From the NCBI GenBank assembly GCA_021813275.1, contig JAKALD010000004.1:1-36227 (forward strand): DNA of 36,227 nt, written 5' to 3'. Source of the stretch: Pseudomonadota bacterium. Its GTDB lineage: Bacteria > Pseudomonadota > Gammaproteobacteria > Burkholderiales > SG8-39. Positions 24,865 to 30,202 of this stretch are shown here, piece by piece (the first letter of the stretch is position 1; each line of letters begins with the position of its first letter). Position numbers and translations under genes: made by a program. The notes beneath the pieces were generated by a model. It was given only the letters and a program-made list of their open reading frames with translations. It was not told where the DNA came from and made no database searches.

Positions 24865-25956
24865 ATGGCGAAAGCGCAGATCCGGGTGCTGCCCGGCGCG
24901 CGCAACAGCATCATGGTGGTGGACGATCAGTCCACCAGCCGCGCCATCCTCGAGCAGGTGGTCCGCAACCTCGACGAGCGCGTGCTGGTCGAGGGGTTCA
25001 TGCGGCCGATCGACGCCGTCTTGTGGGCCACCAAGCACATCGCCGACCTGGTGCTCGTCGACTACATGATGCCGGACATGGACGGCATCGAGTTCGTCAA
25101 GCGCCTGCGCTCGGTACCCGGCTACGAGCACGTGCCGATGGTCATGGTGACCGTGCACGACGACCGCAAGGTTCGCTACGCGGCGCTCGATGCGGGGGTC
25201 ACCGATTTCCTCACCAAGCCGGTGGACGCGCGCGAATGCCTGGCGCGGTGCCGCAACCTGCTCACGCTGCGTCGCCAGCAGCTCGCCCTCGAGGATCGCC
25301 GGCGGCTGCTCGAGCACATGGTGGACGAGGCGACGCACGAGGTGCGCGAGCGCGAAAAGGAGACGCTGCTGCGCCTGGCGCGCGCCGGCGAGTTCCGCGA
25401 CGCCGAGACCGGCTACCATTTGCAGCGCATGTCGCGCTACTCGCGGCTGATCGCCGACGCGATCGGGCTGGAGCGCGACGAAGCCCAGACCATCGAGCTG
25501 GCCGCGCCGCTGCACGACATCGGCAAGATCGGCATCCCGGACCACATCCTGCTGAAGTCCGGCAAGCTCGACGGCGAGGAATGGGCGGTCATGCGCCGCC
25601 ACCCCCTGATCGGCCACGAGATCCTCAAGGGCAGCGCGTCGAAGTACGTGCGCATGGGCGCGCTCATCGCGCTCGGGCACCACGAGAAGTACGACGGCTC
25701 GGGCTATCCGAACGGCCTGGTCAGCGAGCACATCGCGCTCAGCGCGCGCATCGTCGCCGTGGCGGACGTCTACGACGCGCTCACCTCGGTGCGACCGTAC
25801 AAGAAGGCGTGGCCGAGCGAAGAGGCCTTCGAGTACCTGCGCAGCCAGCGCGGCAAGCACTTCGATCCGCAGCTCGTCGACGCATTCCTCGGCGCGCGCG
25901 AGGACGTGCTGCGCGTGCAGCACGAGTACCGGGACACGCCTGCGGCCGCGGAATGA
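24865..25956 (+). CDS. Response regulator with HD-GYP c-di-GMP phosphodiesterase domain, RpfG-like
   Basis: REC: IMVVDDQSTSRAILEQV, LVLVDYMMPDMDGIEFVKRL, FLTKPVDA; HD-GYP: LHDIGKIGIPDHILLKSGKL, GHHEKYDGSGYPNGL; directly upstream of an RpfC-like kinase gene. Confidence 0.9.
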   Translation: MAKAQIRVLPGARNSIMVVDDQSTSRAILEQVVRNLDERVLVEGFMRPIDAVLWATKHIADLVLVDYMMPDMDGIEFVKRLRSVPGYEHVPMVMVTVHDDRKVRYAALDAGVTDFLTKPVDARECLARCRNLLTLRRQQLALEDRRRLLEHMVDEATHEVREREKETLLRLARAGEFRDAETGYHLQRMSRYSRLIADAIGLERDEAQTIELAAPLHDIGKIGIPDHILLKSGKLDGEEWAVMRRHPLIGHEILKGSASKYVRMGALIALGHHEKYDGSGYPNGLVSEHIALSARIVAVADVYDALTSVRPYKKAWPSEEAFEYLRSQRGKHFDPQLVDAFLGAREDVLRVQHEYRDTPAAAE

Positions 25957-25972: not shown

Positions 25973-28492
25973 ATGAGCCCGTTCTCCCGCTGGTGGGGCG
26001 CCATGCGCGCGCGGCTTGCCGCGCGGCCCGACACCGAGCACGAGCAGGCGATCGTGCGGCTGGTGGTGGGAGTCCTGATCGAACTGTATCTGTTACCCGG
26101 CGCCTTACAAGGCCACCATCCCGAGCCGACCATGTGGGTAATGGGGGCGTATTTCGCAATATCGCTGTTTCTGTTCCTGCACATCCTAGTGGCGCCCAAG
26201 GAATCGCCAGTGCGTCGCGTGCTGGCGGCGGTGGCCGACGTAGCCACTTTGACGTGGTGCATGGCTTTTCTGGGCGAGCATGCGGCTCCATTGTTCCTTG
26301 TCTACATCTGGGTGACATTGGCGAACGGCTTTCGCTTTGGCGCGCGCTATCTTTTGATTGCGCTTGGCCTCAGCATCGCGGGCTTTACGACGGTCGTCTT
26401 CTTTAGCGAGTTCTGGCGACAGCATGTCGCGGTCGGTGTTGGGCTGACGATCGGCTTCATAGCACTGAGTTTGTACGTGCTGTCCTTAGTGAGGCGCATG
26501 TTCGACGCGCTTACGCACGCGGAGGCTGCAAATCAGGCCAAACGTCAATTCATCTCCGTTGTGAGCCACGAATTGCGCACGCCGCTGAACGCAATCATCG
26601 GCATGGCCGATCTGCTACGCGATACACCGCTCAATCGCGAGCAGGCGGACATGCTGCAGACGCTGCGCGGCTCGTCGCGCGTGATGCTCGGCTTGGTGGA
26701 GGACGTGCTCGATTTCTCGAAGATTGAGGCCGGAAAACTAGCCCTGGAGCGCGTCGACTTCGACCTGCACGCCTTAGTCAATAGCACCAGCAGGATTCTG
26801 GCCGCCCAGGCTGCGGCCAAGGGTATCGACTTCGTCATATCGATCATGCCGGAGGTTCCGCCCGCGGTGTGCGGCGACCCCCATTACCTGCGTCAGGTTC
26901 TAATCAATTTGGCGGGAAACGCAGTCAAGTTTACGGAACACGGTAGCGTGACAGTGCATGTGTCGTCGCAACATGAGAACGACGCGCATGTGCGCTTGAA
27001 GTTTTCTGTCCGCGACACTGGCGTGGGGATCGCGCCCGATGCGCAGAAGCGCATCTTCGAAAGCTTCACCCAGGCTGACCAGTCGACCGCCCGCCGCTTT
27101 GGCGGCACAGGCCTCGGCACGACGATCGCAAAGCAGCTCGTCGAACTAATGGGTGGGACTATCGGCCTCGAAAGCGCCGTTGGCCTGGGCAGCACCTTTT
27201 GGTTCCAGATCGATCTGGAAAAGCAGCCGGAGCGCCCTGCGTCTGGTACCGGAGAGCTGGCTGGCGCACGCATTCTGCTCGTCAGTCTGCCGGATACCGA
27301 GCGCGAAACGCTCGCACAGGCGCTATCGGGCTGGGGGGCGGTTCCGGTGGCGGTCAGCGGCGTCGAGGAAGGTGTGGCGCGCCTGGTGTCCGAAATCAGC
27401 CTGGCGAGGCCGTACCACAGCGCGCTGCTTTACGCGGGTGCGCAGGACTTGCAGCTCGCCCAGCGGTTCCGGCGCGCGGCTCCTGACCCGGCGCCGCCCA
27501 TCATTCTCGCGGTTCCGAAGGAGGCCGACGTACAACGTTTCGCGGCATTGTCCTCGGGATTCTCCGCGGTGCTCGAGCTGCCATTCGGCAAGCGACAGCT
27601 GTTTAACGTGCTGCATTCTGTTTCCGCCGGCGACGAGGTCCGTGAGGGCGTCGTGCGCTTGCAGGACTATGCGCGTAGCGCTGCGATGGGCCGGCGCCTG
27701 CGGATCCTGGTCGCGGACGACAACCCGACGAACCGCGAAGTGCTGGGCAAGATCTTGGAGCGAGGCGGCCATTCCGCCACTCTGGTAGCAGATGGCGACC
27801 TTGCCCTGGACGCGCTCGAGGCCGCACATTATCACGTTGTACTGCTCGATCGCAATATGCCCGGCATGAGCGGGATCGAAACCCTGCACGCGATCCGCCT
27901 GATGACCCAGGGGCGAGAGCGCTTGCCGATCGCCATGCTTTCAGCTGATGTGACCCCGGATGCACGCCGTGAAGCGCTAGAGGCCGGTGCCGACGCGTTT
28001 CTAGCGAAGCCGGTGGAGGCACTTAAGCTGCTGGAGCAGATTCAGACCCTGAGTCTGGGCGCCGAGGAGACGCCGGCGCGAGTCGAAAGCGGCGCGCCAG
28101 CTAAACACTCGTTCGGCAGCGACGCAACAAACCCGGTGGTGAACGTCGAGACACTTTCGTTCTTGGCAGATCTCGGTTCTTCCCATGCCTTTCTCGAAAG
28201 ACTTGTAGAAGTCTTCTTGGCGGACGGTGCGACCTTGCTCACCAAGATTGAGAGCTCACTTGCTGCGCGCAACTACACGGTATTCCGCGCTCATCTGCAT
28301 GCGATGAAAGGGTCGTCGGCGAGCATGGGCACCGACCGTCTCACCAGACTTTGTGAGACCTACGGGCGTCTTTCCGATGGCGAGCTTCGGCTCCAAACAC
28401 CCGCTTTGCTTCCGTCACTGTGCGGGGAATTCGCGTCGGCACGCGAGGAGCTCGAGCGCTACCTACGCGAGAAGCAGCACTCGTTCGGCTAG
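25973..28492 (+). CDS. Hybrid sensor histidine kinase, RpfC-like: N-terminal TM region, HisKA, HATPase, degenerate REC, canonical REC, Hpt
   Basis: Several hydrophobic helices in roughly the first 170 aa; ANQAKRQFISVVSHELRTPLNAIIGMADLLRDTPLN; GNAVKFTEHG; FGGTGLGTTIAKQLVELMGG; RILVADDNPTNREVLGKILERGG with VVLLDRNMPGMSG; Hpt FRAHLHAMKGSSASMG. Confidence 0.9.
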   Translation: MSPFSRWWGAMRARLAARPDTEHEQAIVRLVVGVLIELYLLPGALQGHHPEPTMWVMGAYFAISLFLFLHILVAPKESPVRRVLAAVADVATLTWCMAFLGEHAAPLFLVYIWVTLANGFRFGARYLLIALGLSIAGFTTVVFFSEFWRQHVAVGVGLTIGFIALSLYVLSLVRRMFDALTHAEAANQAKRQFISVVSHELRTPLNAIIGMADLLRDTPLNREQADMLQTLRGSSRVMLGLVEDVLDFSKIEAGKLALERVDFDLHALVNSTSRILAAQAAAKGIDFVISIMPEVPPAVCGDPHYLRQVLINLAGNAVKFTEHGSVTVHVSSQHENDAHVRLKFSVRDTGVGIAPDAQKRIFESFTQADQSTARRFGGTGLGTTIAKQLVELMGGTIGLESAVGLGSTFWFQIDLEKQPERPASGTGELAGARILLVSLPDTERETLAQALSGWGAVPVAVSGVEEGVARLVSEISLARPYHSALLYAGAQDLQLAQRFRRAAPDPAPPIILAVPKEADVQRFAALSSGFSAVLELPFGKRQLFNVLHSVSAGDEVREGVVRLQDYARSAAMGRRLRILVADDNPTNREVLGKILERGGHSATLVADGDLALDALEAAHYHVVLLDRNMPGMSGIETLHAIRLMTQGRERLPIAMLSADVTPDARREALEAGADAFLAKPVEALKLLEQIQTLSLGAEETPARVESGAPAKHSFGSDATNPVVNVETLSFLADLGSSHAFLERLVEVFLADGATLLTKIESSLAARNYTVFRAHLHAMKGSSASMGTDRLTRLCETYGRLSDGELRLQTPALLPSLCGEFASAREELERYLREKQHSFG

Positions 28493-28533: not shown

Positions 28534-28571
28534 CGCAACCCGCACTATTACTATTCTGGAGAGCAAACCGG

Positions 28572-29243
28572 ATGTCGTTTTTTATTACCTTGGTGGAGAT
28601 GACCGACGCGAATCGGCGGGATTTGGAGAGCGTGCCGAAGGTCCACGAGATGATCCACCGGGGTCTGACCCTCTCGGAATATCGCGCGTTTCTGCACGAC
28701 CTCTACCACGTTGTCTGGCATTTCTGCCCGATCATGGCCACCGCGGCGTCGCATTGCGACGATCGTTTTCGCGGCGTGCGTTATGAGCTCTACGAACGCA
28801 TCAATGAAGAGCAACATCACGAGGAGTGGGTGCTTGAGGACATCGAGGCGATGGGGGGGAACGCAAAGCAGGTCAGCGTCACTCCGCCCAGCCCGCCTGT
28901 ACAAGCAATGATCGGGTTCAATTACTCGGCCTGTGAGCGCATCCATCCATGCTCCGTGTTGGGGATGCTTTACACGCTCGAGGTTGTGGCGTCCGTCTAC
29001 GGGGGGAGGGTGTCGGACTCGATCGCGCGCGCGCTCGGGCGCGATACCGAAGCTGGCGGTTTCAAGTTTCTCTCCTCACACGCGACAATGGATGTCGAGC
29101 ACATGGCGAAGCTCAACAAGCTCGTGAAAACGATTGAAGACTCCGTCGCGCAACAGGCCATCATCGACGCCACGCGCGTTAACTTCTATCAGTTCAGCCA
29201 GATGTTCCGCGAGGGCGGGTTCCAGTCGCTCGTCACCGGCTGA
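28572..29243 (+). CDS. Iron-containing redox enzyme family protein, heme-oxygenase-like diiron oxidase (HDO; TenA/PqqC-like fold)
   Basis: Start at internal ATG of ORF 28353..29243 with ggagag RBS-like upstream; ligand-type motifs ERINEEQHHEEW (ExxH), MLYTLEVV, and SSHATMDVEHM (HxxxDxxH). Confidence 0.8.
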   Translation: MSFFITLVEMTDANRRDLESVPKVHEMIHRGLTLSEYRAFLHDLYHVVWHFCPIMATAASHCDDRFRGVRYELYERINEEQHHEEWVLEDIEAMGGNAKQVSVTPPSPPVQAMIGFNYSACERIHPCSVLGMLYTLEVVASVYGGRVSDSIARALGRDTEAGGFKFLSSHATMDVEHMAKLNKLVKTIEDSVAQQAIIDATRVNFYQFSQMFREGGFQSLVTG

Positions 29244-29275: not shown

Positions 29276-30202
29276 CTAGGCCGTAGCCGCGAGCGCATCA
29301 GCTGTGACGTCAGGGACATCGCCATATTCCATGCGTCGCATTTGTGCACGGACGATCCGGCTCATCATCTTCAGGTCGCGATCCTCTAGTCGCATGGCGG
29401 CGTCTACCCAAGTCTCTGTGATAGCGTCCAGTTCGTCGCGCGTCACCGGATGAATGAGCTGCCGCGTGCGGAACACCGCCTGCACGCCGTTGCGCCGCTT
29501 GCCGTTCTTCGCGATCCATTCATGCACAGCTGACGCCCCGTCGCCGTCCTTTGCAAGGACGTCCACCACGCCCATCTCGTGTAGCTGTTTGGCTGGCAAT
29601 ACGCGGCCGGAGAGGATGAGCTCTTCCGCCGCGCGCATGCCGAGCCGACGCGCGAGAAGGCTGTACGCGCCCATCCCGGGAAATAGGTTGAACAGAATCT
29701 CGGGCAACCCCATCAGCGCGCTTTCCTCGGCGACGATCACATCCGAAGAGAGCGCGGACTCGAACCCGCCACCCAGCGCATCACCTTGCACTAGAGAGAT
29801 TGTGGTCAACGCCGGGCTGAAGAAGTTCTGAATGCGCGGGTACATATTGTCGATGCACAGCTTCGCATAATGCGCGAGCGCATCGCGATCGCGTGCCTTA
29901 ATGAGGAGCACGAACAACGCCAAATCGCCACCAAGGTTAAACACCCGCGGCGTTCTCGAGGCTAGAACGTAGTAGTTTGCCTTGTGGTGTTCGCCATCGA
30001 CCTCGACCCGGCCCTGGTTCGAGGCGAGCGCACAATCGTGAGAGCGAATGTCCTTGAGCAATCCCAAGCTGAAGCACGGGGTCCCCTTAGGCTTGAAATA
30101 CCCCCAGATCGTCCCGCTGCCGGGCTCGAACTCGGTTTCGTATTGCGTGTTCCTCTTTCCGTAGGGCACACGAAGGCCCATCGCATCGCGCAGATTGCTC
30201 AC
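29276..30202 (-). CDS. rpfF: Crotonase-family DSF synthase, RpfF-like
   Basis: GTG start; TISLVQGDALGGGFESALSSDVIVAEESALMGLPEILFNLFPGMGAYSLLARRLG with the two crotonase/RpfF glutamate positions (GGGFE, GLPE); genomic context with rpfG/rpfC-like genes. Confidence 0.9.
   Translation of the reverse strand: MSNLRDAMGLRVPYGKRNTQYETEFEPGSGTIWGYFKPKGTPCFSLGLLKDIRSHDCALASNQGRVEVDGEHHKANYYVLASRTPRVFNLGGDLALFVLLIKARDRDALAHYAKLCIDNMYPRIQNFFSPALTTISLVQGDALGGGFESALSSDVIVAEESALMGLPEILFNLFPGMGAYSLLARRLGMRAAEELILSGRVLPAKQLHEMGVVDVLAKDGDGASAVHEWIAKNGKRRNGVQAVFRTRQLIHPVTRDELDAITETWVDAAMRLEDRDLKMMSRIVRAQMRRMEYGDVPDVTADALAATA

Follow-up and report, generated by a model that had tools for sequence, protein, structure and literature searches.

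A heme-oxygenase-like oxidase linked and fused to RpfF, with an inferred role in tailoring DSF-family signals

A gene encoding a heme-oxygenase-like dimetal oxidase (HDO) was identified in the rpf locus of the window, by which we mean the whole stretch of 36,227 nucleotides of DNA that was analysed, and the HDO subfamily to which it belongs is recurrently and exclusively linked, in four genomes even fused, to RpfF. A role of this HDO in DSF metabolism is well supported by genomics, as the fold match, the set of ligand residues, the linkage and fusion to RpfF and the conserved catalytic Glu residues of RpfF are all shown; its specific chemistry is inferred, and sequence does not distinguish between desaturation, hydroxylation and other outcomes. 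On balance we favour the view that the HDO is a soluble diiron oxidase or oxygenase which tailors the acid released by RpfF and thereby gives a modified DSF-family signal, although substrate, reaction and the use of the product as a signal are inferred. In current descriptions, DSF signalling consists of synthesis by RpfF, sensing by RpfC/RpfG and RpfB-type removal, and HDO members as well as DSF loci and RpfB turnover are already known. What is new is the presence of an HDO as a dedicated partner in a DSF locus and with it an apparently undescribed oxidation step, which is suggested by adjacency and fusion, the oxidation of the signal itself being an inference. The open-access literature searched contained no account of a DSF locus with an HDO (subscription papers were outside the scope). 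An oxidase that is dedicated and fused to RpfF would add a chemical step to DSF signalling and predict unknown signals, while the fusion is a rare and strong substrate clue for an orphan HDO clade. The hypothesis is directly testable in culturable hosts, e.g. Noviherbaspirillum.

The HDO gene (Table 1) is a genuine open reading frame for an HDO, as is shown for the frame, the fold and the ligand residues; metal binding and O2 activation are inferred. It is separated by 79 bases from rpfC and its end lies 32 bases from the stop of the convergent rpfF. In Pfam searches the protein matched PF14518 (Haem_oxygenas_2) with 1.2e-18 and 68 bits against a cut-off of 28.9, and the match is therefore far above chance; TENA_THI-4 was matched more weakly (1.2e-06, 29 bits).

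Table 1. Positions of the rpf genes, the HDO gene and its ligand codons in the window.
Feature	Position	Strand	Basis
rpfG-like response regulator, REC + HD_5, HD-GYP type	24865..25956	+	Pfam
rpfC-like hybrid histidine kinase (5 predicted TM, HisKA, HATPase, REC, Hpt)	25973..28492	+	domains, PDB match
Shine-Dalgarno-like GGAGAG, 8 nt before HDO ATG	28558..28563	+	read from sequence
HDO gene, 223 aa, PF14518, rpf-linked subfamily	28572..29243	+	ORF, ATG start, Pfam, alignment, fold search
Helix-1 ligand codons, E80 to H83 (E-x2-H)	28809..28820	+	alignment, UndA E101/H104 counterpart
Helix-2 ligand codon, E137	28980..28982	+	alignment
Helix-3 ligand codons, H170, D174, H177	29079..29102	+	alignment
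rpfF-like crotonase (DSF synthase family), convergent with HDO gene	29276..30202	-	family and PDB matches, residues

The identity of the neighbouring genes was supported by structure and family matches. The top PDB match of the receiver domain of the RpfC-like kinase was Xanthomonas RpfC (3m6m_D, 1.7e-28), an entry which also contains RpfF, and the window RpfF matched PDB RpfF with 4.6e-53. Both catalytic Glu residues could be read from the translation of the window RpfF (motifs GGGFE and GLPE), and the pair was kept in 109 of 109 RpfF motif instances in the fetched loci. The window RpfF reached 226 bits with the NCBIfam RpfF equivalog, under the cut-off of 550, and 354 with the PRK08788 crotonase family, well over the cut-off of 177. 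It is thus placed in the DSF synthase family as a divergent branch, for which the production of a DSF-family signal is inferred. Compared with the canonical rpf/DSF locus of Xanthomonas (RpfF, RpfC, RpfG, RpfB), the window likewise has rpfF, rpfC and rpfG with catalytic and receiver features, but it harbors the HDO as an additional partner, and no rpfB-like gene was recognised beside rpfF in this window.

In an alignment of HDOs, E80, H83, E137, H170 and H177 were invariant (43/43) and position 174 was Asp in 42 of 43 sequences. The window residues E80-H83-E137-H170-D174-H177 correspond in the alignment to the UndA ligand counterparts at chain positions 103, 106, 161, 196, 200 and 203 of 4wwj, which we take to be UndA E101, H104, E159, H194, D198 and H201, assuming a two-residue numbering offset. 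The alignment shows that they form a 3H/3C set filling all six UndA ligand positions; clustering of the ligands in the model was not measured, and metal binding is inferred. The AlphaFold model (AF2) of the HDO had a pLDDT of 95 and a pTM of 0.91, and the closest solved structures found by Foldseek were 3dde, CADD and UndA, with a probability of 1.00. These results bear on an earlier note on the locus, which had been made from the sequence alone. Its 223-aa HDO reading frame between an RpfC-like kinase gene and a convergent RpfF-like gene held, and the flanks, including the rpfG-like gene, were confirmed; the Glu which it had placed in the helix LYTLEVVAS is E137, and its H170-xxx-D174-xx-H177 motif is present. 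Its helix-1 ligands, E79-xx-H82, did not hold. Position 82 is Gly in 32 of the 34 rpf-linked orthologues, and the pair is for this reason a register error; E79 is variable, and the correct pair is E80/H83. As to the metal site, for which the note had proposed a check, the ligand set is conserved and the fold matches CADD and UndA, with the site geometry in the model not measured. The best family match is PF14518 and not TenA, so that the HDO reading held.

That the protein is a p-aminobenzoate synthase of the CADD/NePabS type, or else a TenA thiaminase, which lies here by chance can be almost entirely dismissed. In favor of it, the best fold matches include CADD and a weak TenA Pfam match exists, and the self-sacrificing pABA synthases CtCADD and NePabS have the fold and a 3H/3C site in common with the window HDO. 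However, their helix-1 ligand spacing is E81/H88, and their Tyr27 and Lys152 are not present in the window HDO. Among the 34 rpf-linked sequences no Tyr occurs at positions 20-30, where Tyr27 of CADD would be expected, and position 147, the counterpart of Lys152, is hydrophobic (Val in 26/34) and never Lys; moreover, TIGR04305 gave 31 bits, far under its 200-bit cut-off. TenA is contradicted by the higher PF14518 score and by the presence of the metal-ligand set. Absence of the sacrificed residues refutes the pABA synthase mechanism, and the family scores together with the lack of these residues led us to reject both the TenA/thiaminase and the CADD reading.

Only about a dozen of >10,000 HDOs are functionally validated, and the substrates of those characterised, except for UndA, are mostly amino acids or peptides (PMC13108848). 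UndA, the fatty acid decarboxylase of Pseudomonas (PDB 4wwj, 6p5q), shares with the window HDO the heme-oxygenase fold, the six ligand positions and the helix-1 E-x2-H spacing, but it is remote (16-17% identity, profile E 7.7e-05) and a close sequence relationship is not met. Furthermore, W190 of UndA is replaced by Phe in the window HDO, which is rpf-linked, and 1-alkene-forming activity can at most be inferred. The top match in both sequence and fold was 3dde (Sden_3740 of Shewanella denitrificans, function unknown; 2.8e-26 by profile, TM 0.83), which has E-x2-H-x6-D in common with the window HDO at ~20% identity. The same motif is shared with MboA, the mangotoxin acetylenase (9ypi; profile match 2e-07), which is an HDO able to desaturate (PMC13185094). 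As an iterative desaturase MboA provides a chemical precedent, but unlike the window system it has a peptide substrate and a redox partner, MboB.

Linkage of the HDO to rpfF was surveyed within the window's family and beyond. Among the 99 genomes of the family, RpfF was present in 53 and the HDO in 25; the HDO adjoined rpfF in 24 of these 25 cases and was cut by a contig end beside rpfC in the 25th. Since more than half of the RpfF genomes of the family are without HDO, it is not needed for DSF signalling as such. In a wider scan of 85,462 species with one genome per species, all 38 loci at >=43% identity were rpf-linked, 37 of them with rpfF within ~1 kb and the 38th (L093) truncated beside rpfC, and rpfF was absent from all six loci at <=34% identity. 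Three further linked HDOs were present in other families of the order (G358, G941, G1011). Gene orders vary among Burkholderiales families and Alphaproteobacteria: rpfG-rpfC-HDO faces rpfF in the window family and in Herminiimonas, rpfC-HDO-rpfF lies on a single strand in Noviherbaspirillum, as does rpfF-HDO in Inquilinus, and in Azohydromonas the HDO-rpfF pair is found with the kinase on the opposite strand. The linkage persists through these changes of order and strand and is real and recurrent, and the reading of the HDO as a chance neighbour of rpfF was ruled out by the neighbourhood surveys.

In the HDO tree, all 37 of the 37 rpf-linked HDOs fell into one clade with a support of 100/100. 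W49 and N204 were invariant among the rpf-linked HDOs and not outside, and Arg predominates at position 49 of the outgroup; from the alignment we infer that this change may reflect a different pocket in the rpf-linked HDOs. Tree neighbours of this clade are HDOs of AMP-ligase/HDO/SDR operons of Proteobacteria, which have the same ligand set at 28-36% identity but are separate from the rpf-linked clade and mostly carry Arg in place of W49; rpfF was nearby in none of the checked loci. The operon itself, with genes for an AMP-binding acyl ligase, an HDO and an SDR, is widespread and conserved (L130-L157, L160-L173, L010, L011, L015, L102, L103), and its substrate is likely acyl.

Single loci showed peculiarities of their own. 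In L065 (G004:C246) a frame-broken second HDO and an rpfF fragment lie next to the intact HDO and rpfF, for which local duplication with decay and misassembly are both possible. One TAA interrupts the HDO frame of L009 (G003:C52), either as a pseudogene or as a sequencing error, and in Azohydromonas a gene for a PF10118 predicted metal-dependent hydrolase (L096:5031-5918) overlaps with the beginning of the HDO-rpfF pair.

In four MAGs that are either alphaproteobacterial or unplaced proteobacterial ones (L097, L098, L099, L101), RpfF and HDO are joined via a linker in a single uninterrupted frame of 632-698 codons, with the HDO part C-terminal to RpfF. Both ECH_1 and PF14518 were found by Pfam in the two fusions tested. 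No stand-alone RpfF was found elsewhere in the four fusion genomes, apart from which there was one additional weak crotonase match in G511. As the four fusions group together in the HDO tree, where they adjoin the unfused Inquilinus, one fusion event is the simplest reading. Around the alphaproteobacterial genome no fusions beyond the first four were detected, the family search covering two genomes only, and other class-level matches with long open frames were AMP-ligase/SDR neighbours rather than RpfF fusions.

It was described that RpfF of Xanthomonas acts as dehydratase and thioesterase on C8-C14 acyl-ACPs and that its products are free fatty acids and BDSF (PMC4542539), and that in UndA the carboxylate of lauric acid is bound on Fe1 (PMC13108848). 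From this release of free acids, the binding of lauric acid by UndA and the fusion, we infer that the HDO oxidises the RpfF-released acid near its carboxylate. In the proposed sequence of events, RpfF would release a free fatty acid of medium chain length, usually a cis-2-enoic one, which the HDO would bind with the carboxylate probably on Fe1; O2 would be activated at the E80/H83/E137/H170/D174/H177 site and the acid oxidised near the carboxylate by desaturation, hydroxylation or another C-H oxidation, and the modified DSF-family signal would be read by RpfC/RpfG. Against tailoring speak the remote relationship to UndA, the amino acid and peptide substrates of most HDOs and the possibility that the fusions trace to one event, and there are no substrate, product or mutant data.

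Alternatively, the HDO might serve turnover, decarboxylating or otherwise destroying the DSF acid in an UndA-like manner as a new route beside RpfB-type acyl-CoA ligation, which would limit the signal or end the response. UndA, with the same ligand set and spacing, takes medium-chain free acids, and the position of the HDO gene downstream of rpfC makes co-transcription with the receptor possible. Nevertheless, we consider turnover unlikely. The HDO is fused to the synthase in four genomes and co-directional with rpfF in others, and destruction of the product inside its synthase would be futile, for which reason tailoring is favoured; in addition, F166 stands in the place of UndA W190 in 34 of 34 rpf-linked sequences. 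Of the functional claims of the earlier note, recurrent linkage of the HDO to rpfF held and extends to fusion. That the HDO acts on the RpfF product is supported by genomics as far as a DSF role is concerned, the choice between oxidation, decarboxylation and desaturation remaining inference, and where the note had left a modified signal and a new turnover route side by side, the synthase fusion favours the former. The note knew of no described rpf locus with an HDO, and our search of open-access literature found none either.

The gap between rpfC and rpfF can host fatty-acid enzymes in relatives, as seen in individual loci without an enrichment statistic. In six loci the stretch between rpfC and HDO contains a PF04116 fatty-acid hydroxylase-like gene, divergent from the HDO (L068, L074, L078, L080, L081, L177; assigned by Pfam for three and by similarity for the remainder), and a DesA-like PF00487 fatty-acid desaturase occupies this place in L069 (L069:4312-5217). 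In L121-L124 a FabB/FabF-like beta-ketoacyl-ACP synthase replaces the HDO, an alpha/beta hydrolase is found in the gap of L031, L037, L038 and L081, and some loci have no gene there at all. The substrates of these hydroxylase, desaturase and ketoacyl synthase families are acyl chains or lipids, with the hydrolase being less specific. The beta-ketoacyl synthase, an upstream acyl-ACP enzyme, together with the acyl ligase of the sister HDO operon, would fit an HDO that modifies an acyl-ACP or acyl precursor ahead of RpfF, which would then make an unusual signal. This also appears improbable, since UndA, the fatty-acid HDO that has been characterised to date, acts on free acids, and the HDO is C-terminal to RpfF in the fusion, albeit weak evidence of order. 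Still less probable is that the HDO is a protective, sensory or structural partner, which would detect O2 or iron or keep peroxide in check and gate RpfF or RpfC with the signal unchanged. Acinetobacter DtpC is a precedent for an HDO with a role in oxidative protection (PMC13232832), but in relatives this gap holds fatty-acid enzymes and the pairing is strictly with RpfF and not RpfC, as in Azohydromonas, where the kinase is on the other strand.

Beyond the tailoring role favoured here, a bolder reading can be put forward, which we hold only tentatively and consider rather less probable than its negation. The cis-2-enoic acid of RpfF, oxidised by the partnered or fused HDO (e.g. to a dienoic, 4-oxidised or possibly butenolide product), would represent a chemically new DSF class read by RpfC, and the gap would be an exchangeable tailoring cassette of HDO, fatty-acid hydroxylase, desaturase, ketoacyl synthase or hydrolase. 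If true, lineages would gain private signals, and signalling would be tied to oxygen and iron.

The taxonomic labels of some contigs were at odds with their loci. L079 and L093, from MAGs labelled Bordetella parapertussis, cluster with uncultured Burkholderiales loci and their label looks wrong, and the Rhodospirillales-labelled contig of L084 carries a locus near the window family (HDO 64%, RpfF 71%), which probably reflects mis-binning or transfer.
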